DNA of 64,000 nt from Gordonia spumicola (GTDB lineage: Bacteria; Actinomycetota; Actinomycetes; Mycobacteriales; Mycobacteriaceae): positions 62,001 through 126,000 of the forward strand of contig NZ_BJOV01000002.1 in assembly GCF_009932475.1 (NCBI RefSeq), read 5' to 3'. A program made the position numbers and the translations under genes. Each line of letters starts with the position of its first letter. Positions within the stretch are counted from its first letter, which is position 1. A model generated the notes under the pieces. That model made no database searches. It was not told where the DNA came from and saw nothing but the letters and a program-made list of their open reading frames with translations. Positions 4,478 to 21,569 of the stretch are shown in pieces.

Positions 4478-6828
<2,351 letters not shown>

Positions 6829-16770: not shown

Positions 16771-17574
16771 GTGACGTACCCGCAGGATCCGCGCATGGGG
16801 AACCGGGGTGCCCCGATCCCGCCCGGACCGCCGCAGACGTGGGCTCCGTGGAACGGTCCCCGCCCCCAGCCGCCGACGGCGCCGAGCCCGTTCGGCGCGC
16901 CCGGGCGATACGGCCCGCCTCAGCAGTACGGCGCGCCGGGACAGTTCGGCGCGCCCCCGCCTTTCGGGGGACCGTCGCCGCTGCCGTACGCACAGCCGCC
17001 GCGCAAGTCCCGGACCGGTCTGATCATCGGCCTCATCACTCTGGTCGCCGTCGTCGGTGCGGGCGTCGGCGTCCTCGTGTGGCAGCCGTGGAAGTCGACC
17101 GACTCGTCGGGCGGCCCGCACACCGAGACGGCGATGCTCGACGACAACGTCTCGCTCACGGTCGAACTGCCCGCCGACTGGCGCCTCGAGACCGGGACCA
17201 TCAAGGGCAAGGTCGCCGCGATGGCGATCCCCGACACGGACACGCGCACCGTGGCGCAGATCGACTCCGACGGCTCGGCCCTCGCCAACGGCGGCAACGG
17301 CAGGCAGGTCCACGCCGTCATCGCACAGGCCGGCCCCTGCTCGGAGTCGGCGGCGACGGTGGCCGTCGGACGTTGGTCGCAGGACTCGGACGACCAGTCG
17401 TCGCACGGGCAGGCCGACCGCAGCGGCGCGACCACCCGCATCGACGACTCCCGCTGCGTACGCGTCGTGGGCGTCGACTTCGCGCACTCGACGGACGCGC
17501 TCACCAGCGAGGCGTCCGAACTTCTCCCCAAACTCATCGCGAACGATAAGATCACCGCTGCTCGCGCGGTCTGA
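16771..17574 (+). CDS. Pro-rich single-span membrane protein with extracytoplasmic domain
   Basis: 267 residues, GTG start with AAAGG upstream. Residues 1-80 are Pro/Gly/Gln-rich with short QYGAPGQFGAP-type repeats and are predicted cytoplasmic. One membrane span lies at about 83-104. The ~160-residue exported part is mostly beta, with two cysteines (190 and 229) that could form a disulfide. The overall shape recalls mycobacterial Pro-rich anchored proteins. It is followed after 35 nt by the SPFH-GYF gene; the Pro-rich tail is a plausible ligand for that protein's GYF domain (inference). No named family recognised. Confidence 0.8.
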   Translation: MTYPQDPRMGNRGAPIPPGPPQTWAPWNGPRPQPPTAPSPFGAPGRYGPPQQYGAPGQFGAPPPFGGPSPLPYAQPPRKSRTGLIIGLITLVAVVGAGVGVLVWQPWKSTDSSGGPHTETAMLDDNVSLTVELPADWRLETGTIKGKVAAMAIPDTDTRTVAQIDSDGSALANGGNGRQVHAVIAQAGPCSESAATVAVGRWSQDSDDQSSHGQADRSGATTRIDDSRCVRVVGVDFAHSTDALTSEASELLPKLIANDKITAARAV

Positions 17575-17609
17575 CCGGCACTTTCCACCAGCGAACGGAG
17601 ACTAGAACC

Positions 17610-18752
17610 ATGGGCATCATCGACAAGATGCGCGGAGAACTCGTCGACATCATCGAATGGGTCGACGATTCGCGTTCCACGCTGGCGTGGCGGTTCCCGC
17701 GCTACAACAACGAGATCAAGAACGGCGCACAGCTGATCGTCCGAGAGGGCCAGCAGGCGGTGTTCGTCTACCGCGGTCAGCTCGCCGACACGTTCGGCCC
17801 GGGTCACTACGAACTGACCAGCGAGAACCTGCCGATCATGAGCACCATCCAGGGATGGAAGCACGGGTTCAACAGCCCGTTCCGTTCCGAGGTGTACTTC
17901 ATCAATCGCAGACCCGTCACCGACCTGCGGTGGGGCACGCCGAACCCGATCACCCTGCGCGACCCCGACTTCGGGATGGTCCAGGTCCGCGCCAACGGCC
18001 TGTGCGTCATCCGGATCGCCGACCCGGCGATCTTCTTGCGCGAAGTGATCGGCGCCGACAGTCAGGTGAACGCCGACGAGATCGCCGAGCTCCTGCGCCG
18101 CGTCATCTCCACGGCGTTCTCCGACATGATCCTGGAGACGGGCGTCGGAGCCATCGACCTGCAGGGCAAGCAGGTCGAGCTCAGCGACAAGCTCCGCGAG
18201 TACGTCCAGACGCGCGTCGACGACGAGTACGGCCTCGCCATCGAGTCGGTGACGATGAACATCTCGCTGCCCGACGAGATCACCGCGGCCATGACGCGGG
18301 GCGTCGCACGCGGTGTGGAGGAGCGCGGGTTCCTCAACAACGTCGGCGACATGAACCGCTTCCAGCAGGGACGGGCGGGCGACGCGATGCTGGCCGCCGC
18401 GCAGAACCCCGGAGGCGGCACCGCGGGCGACATGATGGGCATGGGCGTCGGCATGGCGATGGCGGGCCAGTTCGCGAACCAGTTCAACCAGCAGCAACAG
18501 CAGGCTCCCGCGGGCCCTCCGCCGATCCCGGCGGCACAGACGTTCCACGTCGACCAGAACGGCGCCGCGGCCGGTCCGTTCACGATCGATCAGCTTCGCG
18601 GCGTCCTCACCCCGACGACGCTCGTCTGGTCGCAGGGCATGGCCGGGTGGACCCAAGCCGGACAGGTCCCCGCCCTCGCCCCGCTGTTCGCGCCCACCGG
18701 TCCCCCGCCGCTGCCCCCGCAGACGCCGCAGGCTCCGCCGACCGGGCAGTGA
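17610..18752 (+). CDS. SPFH-domain protein (YdjI/virion-core type) with C-terminal GYF domain
   Basis: 380 residues. The first ~230 form an SPFH-like domain beginning MGIIDKMRGELVDIIEW and containing AVFVYRGQLADTFGPGHYEL, the pattern of the Bacillus YdjI/'virion core protein' SPFH subgroup rather than classical flotillin. A Gly/Met/Gln-rich linker (about 255-300) leads to a GYF_2 domain at about 302-355 (AGPFTIDQLRGVLTPTTLVW, then GMAGWTQAGQVPAL). A Pro-rich tail, PPPLPPQTPQAPP, ends the protein. GYF domains bind Pro-rich peptides, and three of the four cluster proteins carry such stretches. The predicted role is scaffolding at the inner membrane surface. Confidence 0.85.
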   Translation: MGIIDKMRGELVDIIEWVDDSRSTLAWRFPRYNNEIKNGAQLIVREGQQAVFVYRGQLADTFGPGHYELTSENLPIMSTIQGWKHGFNSPFRSEVYFINRRPVTDLRWGTPNPITLRDPDFGMVQVRANGLCVIRIADPAIFLREVIGADSQVNADEIAELLRRVISTAFSDMILETGVGAIDLQGKQVELSDKLREYVQTRVDDEYGLAIESVTMNISLPDEITAAMTRGVARGVEERGFLNNVGDMNRFQQGRAGDAMLAAAQNPGGGTAGDMMGMGVGMAMAGQFANQFNQQQQQAPAGPPPIPAAQTFHVDQNGAAAGPFTIDQLRGVLTPTTLVWSQGMAGWTQAGQVPALAPLFAPTGPPPLPPQTPQAPPTGQ

Positions 18753-18756
18753 TCCG

Positions 18757-19968
18757 GTGACCCAGCCTCCCCCGCTCCCACCGAGCGGGCCGCCGCCCGT
18801 TCCACGGCCGCAGGGTGTCGTGGGGCGCCCGCAGCCCACCCCGGCGAACGCCGCCGATCGGGCTCAGCGCCAGGTGACCGAGCAGACCCGCACCTATCCG
18901 TGCGGCAACTGCGGCGCGCCCCTCGCATACGCACCCGACCAGCAGCGACTCGCGTGCGCGTCGTGCGGCACCACATACCCGATCGAACTCGATCCGAACG
19001 CGCGGATCGTCAAACACGACCTGCAGACGGCGATGAATCAGCTCGCCGGAAACCGGGCTCTCGGCCTCGCGTCGATCGGCGGGAACGAGCACGTCGTCAC
19101 CTGTCAGGCGTGCGGCGGCAAGACCATCTTCAACGGCAGTCTCACCGCCACCCGCTGCCCGTACTGCGCGACGCCGATCCAGCGCGACGACATCCAGGAC
19201 GCGCCGGAACGTCTGGCACTCGACGCGGTCCTACCGTTGCAGGTGGCGCAGCCGCAGGCTCAGGCGGCGATCGAGAAGTGGATCAACAGTCGGTGGTTCG
19301 CTCCGAGCGAGTTCAAGAAGTACCGCACGCTCGGGTCGTTCACCAGCGTCTACATGTCGTACTACTCGTATGACGTCGAGGCGACGACCGGCTACTCCGG
19401 GCAACGCGGTGACGACTACACCGTCGTCGTGGGGTCGGGCGACGATCAGCACACCGAGACGCGGACGGCGTGGCGCCCGGTGTCGGGCCGGGTGCACGAC
19501 AGCATCCGCGACCTCCCCGAGATGGCGAACACCGGAATGGACGACGACCGCGTCCGCGAGCTCGAACCGTGGCCCGTCCAGGCCGCCGTCCCGTACACGC
19601 CGGAGTTCGTGGCCGGGCATCTGTCGAGGACCTACGACCGTGACCCCGGCGACGTGTTCGACAAGAACGCCCGACCGCGCGTCGACTCGCAGATCGACGG
19701 CACCATCCGCCGCGACATCGGCGGCGACCATCAGCAGATCCACCACAAGCAGACGGTGTTCGACCAGTTGGCGTTCATGTACCTGCTGCTCCCGATGTGG
19801 CTGCTGACCGTGAACTTCGAGGGACGCCCCTTCCAGGTGTTCGTCAACGGACTGACCGGCGAAGTGCAGGGCGACCGGCCGTGGAGCAAGGTCAAGATCG
19901 CGGCCGCCGTCGTCGCCGCGCTGATCCTGATCGGCGTCCTGGTGTTCCTGTTCATGAGGATGAGGTAG
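18757..19968 (+). CDS. Double zinc-ribbon, C-terminally anchored membrane protein (YdjG-like)
   Basis: 403 residues, GTG start 4 nt after the previous stop. A Pro-rich N terminus precedes two zinc ribbons: Cys49/52/67/70 (CGNCG, CASCG) and Cys116/119/134/137 (CQACGG, CPYC). The middle is a beta-rich domain with the segment FTSVYMSYYSYDVEATTGYSG. A single membrane span closes the chain at about 380-400 (VVAALILIGVLVFLFMRMR), with a hydrophobic LLLPMWLLTVNF patch before it. This is the architecture of Bacillus subtilis YdjG and its 'primosomal N'-like' homologues, which work with YdjH and the SPFH protein YdjI. Predicted cytoplasmic zinc domains on an inner-membrane anchor. Confidence 0.83.
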   Translation: MTQPPPLPPSGPPPVPRPQGVVGRPQPTPANAADRAQRQVTEQTRTYPCGNCGAPLAYAPDQQRLACASCGTTYPIELDPNARIVKHDLQTAMNQLAGNRALGLASIGGNEHVVTCQACGGKTIFNGSLTATRCPYCATPIQRDDIQDAPERLALDAVLPLQVAQPQAQAAIEKWINSRWFAPSEFKKYRTLGSFTSVYMSYYSYDVEATTGYSGQRGDDYTVVVGSGDDQHTETRTAWRPVSGRVHDSIRDLPEMANTGMDDDRVRELEPWPVQAAVPYTPEFVAGHLSRTYDRDPGDVFDKNARPRVDSQIDGTIRRDIGGDHQQIHHKQTVFDQLAFMYLLLPMWLLTVNFEGRPFQVFVNGLTGEVQGDRPWSKVKIAAAVVAALILIGVLVFLFMRMR

Positions 19969-19971
19969 ACG

Positions 19972-20502
19972 ATGACCATCATCGTGATCGTGATCCTGCT
20001 GTTCCTGGTGGTGATCGCCGGGGCGGCCGTCGCATTCGGCGTCGCGCTGGCTCGATCGGGGACCAAGGCGCAGGCGCAGGGAGCACGCATCCCCGGCGTC
20101 GACGTCGTGGTGCCGGTGTCGTGGGCCGGTTCGCACGATCCGGAACCGCGTCTGCACCGTCGGATCCGGGATGCCGCCGCGGCGCTGGACAAGACGATCG
20201 GCATGGCCGACGTCGCGCAACTCGACGAACGGGCCCGGCTGTTGGTCACCGCGCAGGAACTCGATCAGCTCTTGGTGACGATCTCGACGCTGCCCGCGAA
20301 CGCGAAGGCCGAACCGCTGGCCCGGGCCGAGGCGCAGGTCGCGCAGTTCGAGAGGGACGCTGCCGCGATCGCCGCGGCACCGGGCCTGGACGCCGGCCTC
20401 GGGTACGCACCGCCCTCGCCGCCGCTTCCTCCGCTCCCCCGACAGGAGCCCGCGCCTCGCCGCGACGACACACCGGAGCCGCCGGCCGGTCTGGCCCAGT
20501 GA
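19972..20502 (+). CDS. Small membrane-anchored protein with helical domain (YdjH position)
   Basis: 176 residues. An N-terminal span (residues 3-27) is followed by a short linker, a helical region (HRRIRDAAAALDKTIGMADV through LARAEAQVAQFERDAAAIAA) with coiled-coil character, and a Pro-rich C terminus (PPSPPLPPLPRQEPAPR). Gene spacing is 3 nt to the zinc-ribbon gene, and its stop overlaps the next start in a GTGA. No family name recognised; order and topology make it the candidate third partner of the SPFH/zinc-ribbon complex. Confidence 0.78.
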   Translation: MTIIVIVILLFLVVIAGAAVAFGVALARSGTKAQAQGARIPGVDVVVPVSWAGSHDPEPRLHRRIRDAAAALDKTIGMADVAQLDERARLLVTAQELDQLLVTISTLPANAKAEPLARAEAQVAQFERDAAAIAAAPGLDAGLGYAPPSPPLPPLPRQEPAPRRDDTPEPPAGLAQ

Positions 20503-21569
20503 CGGTCACGTCGTACTTCGCCACGACTGCCAGAGCTCTTCGGGGCCGCGGCGTGGCCGCCGAGTTCCCGAGCGTCGCGGCCGCTCGCGCGGCCCTGCTC
20601 ACGGGCGAGGTGACGGCCGTGACCGGTGCATTCGGCTTCGACTCGACGGGGAAGGCCGCGCTCCTGGCGCCACACGAATTCGGCGAGACGACACCACTGC
20701 GCTCCCGACCCGTCGACACCGTCGTCACCGACCGCGACATCACTCCCGCCGCCGTCCACGCCGACCGCGTGCGGGCCGTGCTCGACGCCATCGATGAGGG
20801 CCGCGTCGGGAAGGCCGTCCTCGCGCGCACGCTGCATCTGACACTCGACGCCCCGCTCGACCCGGAGGCGCTCGCCGCCCGGTTCACCCCGGGCTCGGAC
20901 GCCGCCACGACGACCGCGTTCGCCGTCCCCCTCGACGCCGCGGGCCGTGTCGGCCACTGGCTGATCGGCGCGAGCCCGGAACTGCTGGTCCGCCGCACCG
21001 GGCGCGTGGTCACCTGCCATCCGTTCGCGGGCACCGCGCCGCGCGGCACCGACGCCGTCTCCGACCGGGCGGCCGTCGAATCGCTTCGCGCCTCGGACAA
21101 GGACCTCCGTGAGCACGCGTTCGTCGTCGACTCGCTGGTCGACGCCCTGCGCCCGCTCTGCTGCGAACTCGACGTCCCCGATGCGCCGCGAATCGAGTCG
21201 ACTCCGGCGGTCTGGCATCTGGCGACGCCGATCCGCGGGGTGCTGGCCGACGAGTCGGTCACCGCTCTCGACCTCGCCGCGCTGCTCTCCCCCACTCCCG
21301 CCGTCTGCGGGACCCCGACGGCGGCTGCGGCCGACCTGATCGCCGAGATCGAGGGCTCACGCGATTTCTACGCCGGGGCCGTCGGCTGGTGTGACGCCTC
21401 GGGTGACGGCGAGTGGTTGGTGTCGATCCGCTGCCTCGAACTGGACGCCGCGCACACCGGCGTGACCACCTGGGCGGGCGGCGGCGTCGTCGCAGGCTCC
21501 GACCCCGACGCCGAAGTGGCCGAGACCGAGGCCAAGTTCCGTACCGTCCTCACCGCCCTCGGGCTCTGA
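20499..21569 (+). CDS. Isochorismate synthase (chorismate-utilising enzyme family)
   Basis: Converts chorismate to isochorismate, for menaquinone or siderophore synthesis. The 356 residues show the family's C-terminal catalytic motifs: GRVGKAVLAR with the general-base lysine, LIGASPELLVRR, CHPFAGTAPRG, ESTPAVWHLATPIRG, and the Mg-binding EIEGSRDFYAGAVGW. The N-terminal region is short, as in EntC/DhbC/MenF-like actinobacterial enzymes. The GTG start overlaps the upstream membrane-protein stop, so it is co-translated with that cluster, which is odd. No other men or ent gene is nearby, so the pathway cannot be decided. Confidence 0.9.
   Translation: MTVTSYFATTARALRGRGVAAEFPSVAAARAALLTGEVTAVTGAFGFDSTGKAALLAPHEFGETTPLRSRPVDTVVTDRDITPAAVHADRVRAVLDAIDEGRVGKAVLARTLHLTLDAPLDPEALAARFTPGSDAATTTAFAVPLDAAGRVGHWLIGASPELLVRRTGRVVTCHPFAGTAPRGTDAVSDRAAVESLRASDKDLREHAFVVDSLVDALRPLCCELDVPDAPRIESTPAVWHLATPIRGVLADESVTALDLAALLSPTPAVCGTPTAAAADLIAEIEGSRDFYAGAVGWCDASGDGEWLVSIRCLELDAAHTGVTTWAGGGVVAGSDPDAEVAETEAKFRTVLTALGL

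Follow-up and report, generated by a model that had tools for sequence, protein, structure and literature searches.

Genes 2, 3 and 4 of a run of four genes in the Gordonia spumicola genome form a conserved actinobacterial cassette. They lie within a stretch of 64,000 nucleotides (contig NZ_BJOV01000002.1, positions 62,001 to 126,000 of the forward strand), referred to here as the window, from whose first letter all coordinates are counted. Three of the four genes, and not all of them, make up the conserved unit, and its products would likely form an SPFH scaffold under the cell membrane, with the GYF domain of the gene 2 protein predicted to dock on PPPLP-type motifs in its own flanks and at the N-terminus of the gene 3 protein. 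On the sequence evidence, this reading is given roughly an even chance of being correct. No paper on an SPFH-GYF operon was found in a literature search.

A previous sequence-only reading of the window described four close or overlapping genes, and four co-directional open frames are present at 16771-17574, 17610-18752, 18757-19968 and 19972-20502; read from the coordinates, the gaps between successive genes are 35, 4 and 3 bases. All four were subjected to a Pfam scan with curated cut-offs and to a hydropathy scan for membrane helices. The features of the cassette are as follows.

17610..18752, + strand: gene 2, SPFH (Band_7_1) protein with a C-terminal GYF_2 domain, 380 aa (Pfam; relatives in 80 further loci)
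17688..18314, + strand: Band_7_1 / SPFH domain of gene 2, residues 27-235 (Pfam PF13421)
18516..18530, + strand: PPPIP just 5' of the GYF domain, predicted GYF ligand (motif)
18546..18677, + strand: GYF_2 domain of gene 2, residues 313-356 (Pfam; profile match to 7z3c)
18702..18716, + strand: PPPLP just 3' of the GYF domain, predicted GYF ligand (motif)
18757..19968, + strand: gene 3, double zinc ribbon, beta-rich domain and C-terminal membrane helix, 403 aa
18766..18804, + strand: N-terminal PPPLP and PPPVP of gene 3, predicted GYF ligands (motif)
18898..18981, + strand: zinc ribbon 1 of gene 3, C49, C52, C67 and C70 (CxxC pairs)
19090..19206, + strand: zinc ribbon 2 of gene 3, C116, C119, C134 and C137 (CxxC pairs)
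19888..19962, + strand: C-terminal membrane helix of gene 3, residues 378-402, predicted (AlphaFold2 model, hydropathy)
19972..20502, + strand: gene 4, N-terminal membrane helix and predicted three-helix bundle, 176 aa
20113..20163, + strand: gene 4 signature, with P48, W51, H55, E58, R63 and R64 invariant and A59 and H62 nearly so (alignment of 55)

The three proteins and their linkage

The core of the cassette, an SPFH protein and a zinc-ribbon membrane protein, is ordinary. What is new in the actinobacterial form is the GYF domain, the repeated proline motif, and a third subunit from a family that has no Pfam model.

The fusion of an SPFH protein to a GYF domain, proposed from the sequence alone, is borne out by two Pfam matches in gene 2, to Band_7_1 (PF13421) at 1.9e-96 and 322 bits, against a curated cut-off of 24, and to GYF_2 at 9.8e-14 and 51.3 bits, against a cut-off of 25.8. 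Its placement in the YdjI-type subgroup holds at the level of the Pfam family, since PF13421 is matched in Bacillus subtilis too (at family level, the gene there not being specified). The hydropathy scan of gene 2 found no hydrophobic segment that could be a membrane helix, and the Pfam scan found no C-terminal zinc ribbon such as that of YdjI, GYF_2 standing there instead. The C-termini of ten other PF13421 proteins that were scanned carry a zinc ribbon, SHOCT, HTH_17 or GYF_2. SHOCT domains are reported on PF13421 proteins in the available portion of PMC3581485, so that it is already known for this SPFH subgroup to bear other kinds of C-terminal domain. The SPFH/zinc-ribbon pair thus appears as a core to which differing C-terminal domains attach. 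A GYF domain was detected by profile in 89 of the 92 SPFH proteins taken with their neighbourhoods; one of the other three is cut off, one from Comamonas ends in HTH_17 and one from Burkholderia ends in SHOCT. Where HTH_17 replaces GYF on the Comamonas plasmid (L205), a gene 3 homologue still follows.

Gene 3 had been described as a YdjG-like membrane protein with two zinc ribbons, and in outline this is supported by its four CxxC pairs and a predicted C-terminal helix at residues 378-402. The zinc-ribbon matches of the window copy are under the Pfam cut-offs, the best being DZR at 0.00024; DZR is matched at E<=0.001 by 46 of the 78 aligned gene 3 proteins, and four CxxC pairs are present in 76 of 84 gene 3 relatives. 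In zinc ribbon 2 all four cysteines are invariant in the 78 sequences. One cysteine of zinc ribbon 1 is absent from several Tsukamurella rows of the alignment.

Gene 4 is a member of a widespread protein family matched by no Pfam model, and in the window copy no Pfam family exceeds its cut-off. The signature pattern is present in 69 of 70 relatives and in none of 1104 control proteins. The window gene itself departs from it, with P in place of A after E58. The predicted N-terminal membrane helix and three-helix bundle are consistent with the description of gene 4 as a small anchored helical protein. On the lack of a Pfam match over cut-off, gene 4 was rejected as a YdjH/TPM protein. Gene 4 was also rejected as a general proline partner, PP.?P being present in 14 of 70 gene 4 relatives as against 158 of 1104 neighbouring proteins.

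A profile scan covering one genome per species gave 476 gene 2 relatives; the 80 that scored best were kept, making 81 loci with the window. These span Gordonia, Williamsia, Tsukamurella, Nocardia, Mycobacterium, Actinophytocola, Propionibacteriaceae, Flexivirga and Acidimicrobiia, among others. In 76 of the 81 loci gene 2 is followed by gene 3, the other five being cut by contig ends, and of 84 spacings between the two genes 61 fall between -4 and +12 bases. The gene 3 of L050 was located by tblastn between genes 2 and 4 and not by gene calling. Gene 4 is next in 66 of the 76 loci with gene 3, with another called gene intervening in L019; in two of the remaining ten the contig ends, and eight have room for gene 4 without a match to it. 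L060 is cut by a contig end.

A sample of 396 genomes from the phylum contains 85 over the Band_7_1 cut-off, six of which, including that of the window, score above 300 bits, and in all five others genes 2, 3 and 4 are present in that order. Fifteen weaker loci from the phylum were read. Three (L194, L196, L197) gave no gene 2 match and were left out; in the remaining 12 the gene 3 matches are weak (1e-2 to 1e-6) and gene 4 matches are absent. The SPFH protein carries CxxC pairs in 11 of these 12 and GYF_2 in one (L199).

Several individual loci deserve mention. L044 (NZ_JNYV01000001.1) is in a record titled Kitasatospora arboriphila and has a Williamsia-like cassette; the record is probably mislabelled. 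In the Propionibacteriaceae loci L033, L041 and L067, which are without a gene 4 match, gene 3 is followed by a convergent gene, presumably flotillin-like. A gene 2 homologue is present on a 250-kb Tsukamurella plasmid (NZ_LR134447.1, 64861-65952), from which it would seem that the cassette may at times be plasmid-borne.

Proline motifs and the proposed scaffold

The genes of the relatives were called by a codon-usage script, which shortens proline-rich starts, and the starts of gene 3 were for this reason moved upstream by rule. With these starts, 58 of 80 actinobacterial gene 3 proteins have PPP[LIMV]P ahead of their first zinc ribbon, and 70 of 80 have PPP[LIMV]. The stricter motif is found within the first 80 residues of only one of 1104 neighbouring proteins, a count that is unchanged when their starts are moved by the same rule, and in none of 14 controls with a proline-rich start. 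Across the gene 3 N-termini there are 111 motifs, while 500 composition shuffles give 5.5 on average and never more than 13. Similar motifs stand on either side of the GYF domain in gene 2. PP[PG]?[LIMV] is present within 25 residues 5' of the domain in all 89 GYF-bearing relatives; 3' of it, 88 of the 89 have PPP[LIMVP] and 83 have the strict PPP[LIMV]P, while among 1104 neighbouring proteins 8 have PPP[LIMVP] within their last 40 residues.

The suggestion that a GYF domain here contacts proline-rich partners is kept as a narrower prediction, for gene 3 and for the flanks within gene 2, both of which exceed their controls, but not for genes 1 and 4, which are not general proline partners. Likewise, the three Pro-rich partners that had been counted are there in the window, whereas across the relatives gene 3 alone stays Pro-rich. 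According to the available part of PMC5657617, proline-rich motifs are the ligands of eukaryotic GYF domains, and one such domain that has a ligand motif of its own has been proposed to bind itself.

The lack of a hydrophobic helix in gene 2 would suggest that the SPFH protein is held at the membrane by gene 3, through its predicted C-terminal helix, and perhaps also by gene 4, with its predicted N-terminal helix and three-helix bundle. The presence of motifs on both sides of the GYF domain suggests that the domain can grip neighbouring SPFH subunits. With its matching motif, the membrane partner encoded by gene 3 would then be able to use that GYF pocket too, either plugging into it or competing for it, and recruitment or sensing would likely fall to the gene 3 zinc ribbons and the conserved gene 4 residues.

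The GYF domain might instead act solely inside the SPFH assembly, where it would hold the proline motif of adjacent subunits; the proline N-terminus of gene 3 would then be a flexible tether with no binding role and genes 3 and 4 would touch the scaffold by other surfaces. GYF domains flanked by motifs are indeed found in Paracoccus, Vibrio and Bacteroides plasmid proteins as well, and on the Paracoccus and Vibrio plasmids the gene 3 partner has no proline N-terminus, which would mean that the gene 3 motif is not needed wherever GYF occurs. A mere tether would not, however, need the excess of motifs seen over the shuffled gene 3 N-termini, and this alternative is considered unlikely. On the sequence evidence the oldest ligand may have been the SPFH protein itself, with the gene 3 partner joining later in the Actinomycetota.

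Besides the Paracoccus and Vibrio pairs, several points weigh against the docking of GYF on both its own flanks and gene 3. The mechanism is drawn from motif statistics and gene order, and GYF binding is predicted. The eukaryotic GYF ligand named in the portion of PMC5657617 consulted is PPGF and not PPPLP. The strict motif is missing from 22 of the 80 actinobacterial gene 3 proteins, in some cases perhaps through uncertain starts. Positive charges flank the gene 3 helix on both sides, which leaves its topology uncertain. As to the cassette, the loci sampled are the nearest 80 of the 476; they are mutually related, so that locus counts are not independent, and the eight loci with room for gene 4 but no match to it also weigh against the reading.

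A more specific form of the proposed scaffold is tentatively put forward as a possibility, in which tail mimicry would give an SPFH scaffold independent of PspA. Each GYF domain would hold the PPPLP of its neighbour, the same motif on the zinc-ribbon protein would open, cap or anchor the assembly, and gene 4 would be a new regulatory subunit built around the invariant His, Glu and Arg at the start of its bundle.

SPFH proteins organise membranes in many organisms, but the way in which those without a membrane anchor are recruited is understood for few bacteria. Across the Actinomycetota the cassette keeps a short motif and the domain predicted to read it in one gene set, so that the contact proposed for recruitment could be tested directly with peptides.

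Gene 1 and its neighbourhood

Two further features adjoin the cassette in the window.

16771..17574, + strand: gene 1, Pro-rich N-terminus, one hydrophobic helix and a predicted outside domain; not in the cassette
20499..21569, + strand: chorismate-binding enzyme (PF00425, 4.4e-68), the usual neighbour of gene 1

The second of these is presumably of the isochorismate synthase type. Its start overlaps the gene 4 stop by 4 bases (20499-20502 in the window, and likewise 13005-13008 in L003), so that the cassette fits tightly into the gene row.

Gene 1, for which no Pfam family was found over its cut-off, had been taken as the first member of a set of four. It is matched in 5 of the 81 loci, all of them Gordonia, so that the set that is conserved is genes 2, 3 and 4. 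Among 59 Gordonia genomes, 15 have gene 2 and 12 have a strong gene 1 (E<1e-20); the latter is directly before gene 2 in seven, downstream in three, and present without gene 2 in two. At a threshold of 1e-10, gene 1 is matched in Gordonia and in one other among 31 sampled genera of the family. The match in that other genus, in L222, is a weak relative of gene 1 (6064-6702, about 30% identity) about 19.5 kb from the cassette of the same genome; no match to the aminotransferase or the chorismate-binding enzyme described below was found in the 30 kb read there.

Gene 1 has a conserved neighbourhood of its own. At all eight gene 1 loci examined (the window and seven others) gene 1 is flanked on one side by a divergent class-V aminotransferase, in the seven others 42-83% identical to that of the window, and has the chorismate-binding enzyme downstream. 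Gene 1 and this enzyme are adjacent, with no cassette between them, in five of the eight, and two of these genomes are without gene 2. The window and two relatives have the three-gene cassette between the two. The fact that the gene 1 neighbourhood also occurs without the cassette supports the view that the cassette is a plug-in at this site and that gene 1 is a host neighbour. In the other Gordonia cassette clade (L018, L022, L217, L218) none of the genes of this neighbourhood was found within the stretches examined.

A four-gene system had been the sequence-only reading; as an envelope system, it would have the exported gene 1 protein sense the cell surface and signal to the SPFH scaffold. 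Gene 1 is 35 bases before gene 2 in the window, and within Gordonia it is present in 10 of the 15 genomes with gene 2 as against 2 of the 44 without (Fisher 2.6e-6). Shared ancestry can produce such an association, however, and would have inflated it here; a strong gene 1 is lacking in five of the 15 genomes that have gene 2. The weak relative in L222 might be counted in favour of such a system, while the single other genus at 1e-10 and the neighbours that gene 1 keeps in all eight loci, five of them without an intervening cassette, argue against it. The four-gene system is regarded as very improbable. Gene 1 was rejected as a member of the cassette on its rarity among the 81 loci, its occurrence without gene 2 and its own neighbourhood, and in the proposed scaffold it would be an unrelated neighbour.

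PspA and comparison with known systems

The genome from which the window comes comprises 4.89 Mb in 10 contigs and contains one PspA match, on a different contig, with a helix-turn-helix gene before it. The earlier statement that no pspA is present is thus true of the locus but not of the genome. Indeed PspA is present in all 59 Gordonia genomes, 44 of which have no gene 2, and the idea that contacts between GYF and proline-rich partners replace PspA recruitment is accordingly rejected. A tblastn search at 1e-3 with the PspA of this genome detected no relatives around the 80 loci (flanks of up to 10 kb, 1.42 million bases in all); the query did find relatives in three other Gordonia, at 86-87% identity, which is an easy control. 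The same search, with a query for which there was no positive control, found no relatives of this genome's own TPM (the YdjH domain), and the sole TPM match in the genome lies away from the cassette.

Separately encoded PspA could still be a client of the scaffold. In B. subtilis, according to the part of PMC8581546 available, YdjI has no membrane helix and reaches the membrane only with YdjG and YdjH, YdjI binds PspA, and the arrival of PspA at the membrane requires YdjI. Links between SPFH proteins and ESCRT-III are discussed in the portion of PMC10936438 that was accessible. Genes 2 and 3 might on this model act like YdjI and YdjG and bring PspA to the stressed membrane, with GYF replacing the YdjI zinc ribbon as the contact. 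The PF13421 match shared by gene 2 and B. subtilis, the likeness in outline of gene 3 to the published YdjG, the position of PspA after a helix-turn-helix gene and its presence throughout Gordonia would all be consistent with this, as would the binding of PspA by YdjI. The lack of PspA relatives around the 80 cassettes, the 44 Gordonia genomes that have PspA and no gene 2, and the absence of a TPM protein (YdjH) from the cassette argue against it, and PspA recruitment as in Bacillus is held to be possible but doubtful.

The scaffold proposed here, with GYF docking on its own flanks and on gene 3, has likenesses to several known proteins. The only solved structure matched by the gene 2 profile at E<=0.1 is the GYF domain of AgmX/GltJ of Myxococcus (PDB 7z3c, 4.3e-07), which differs in being a gliding-motility protein according to the name of the PDB entry. 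The flotillins FloA and FloT have the SPFH domain in common with gene 2, whose best Pfam match is Band_7_1; they bind the membrane unaided, as stated in the available text of PMC8581546, while gene 2 has no hydrophobic helix.

The Paracoccus and Vibrio plasmid pairs are closer, a gene 2 homologue with GYF_2 being followed at once by a gene 3 homologue (profile E 6.2e-78 to 1.1e-79). They differ in having no gene 4 match and, as noted above, no proline N-terminus on the partner, and the Paracoccus pair has a TelA gene and a further gene upstream. The order on the Paracoccus plasmids L203 and L210 is TelA, one gene (annotated as DUF2927 in L210), SPFH-GYF and the zinc-ribbon membrane protein, from which a link of the SPFH-GYF/zinc-ribbon pair to TelA-type stress genes is possible.

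The nearest described system is pspA-ydjGHI of B. subtilis, the domains of which are described in the part of PMC11237479 available. The likeness is drawn through the Pfam family and published domain descriptions. Both combine an SPFH protein (PF13421) that has no membrane helix with a protein that carries two zinc ribbons, one more domain and a membrane segment, as YdjG is described in the accessible parts of PMC11237479 and PMC8581546. The cassette differs in that GYF is found where YdjI has a C-terminal zinc ribbon, neither a TPM protein nor pspA was found nearby, the third protein (gene 4) is of a different kind, the SPFH gene comes first, and the zinc-ribbon protein has a proline N-terminus. 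The cassette is therefore read here as a variant, in three parts, of SPFH scaffolds like that of YdjG and YdjI, and its function is predicted.

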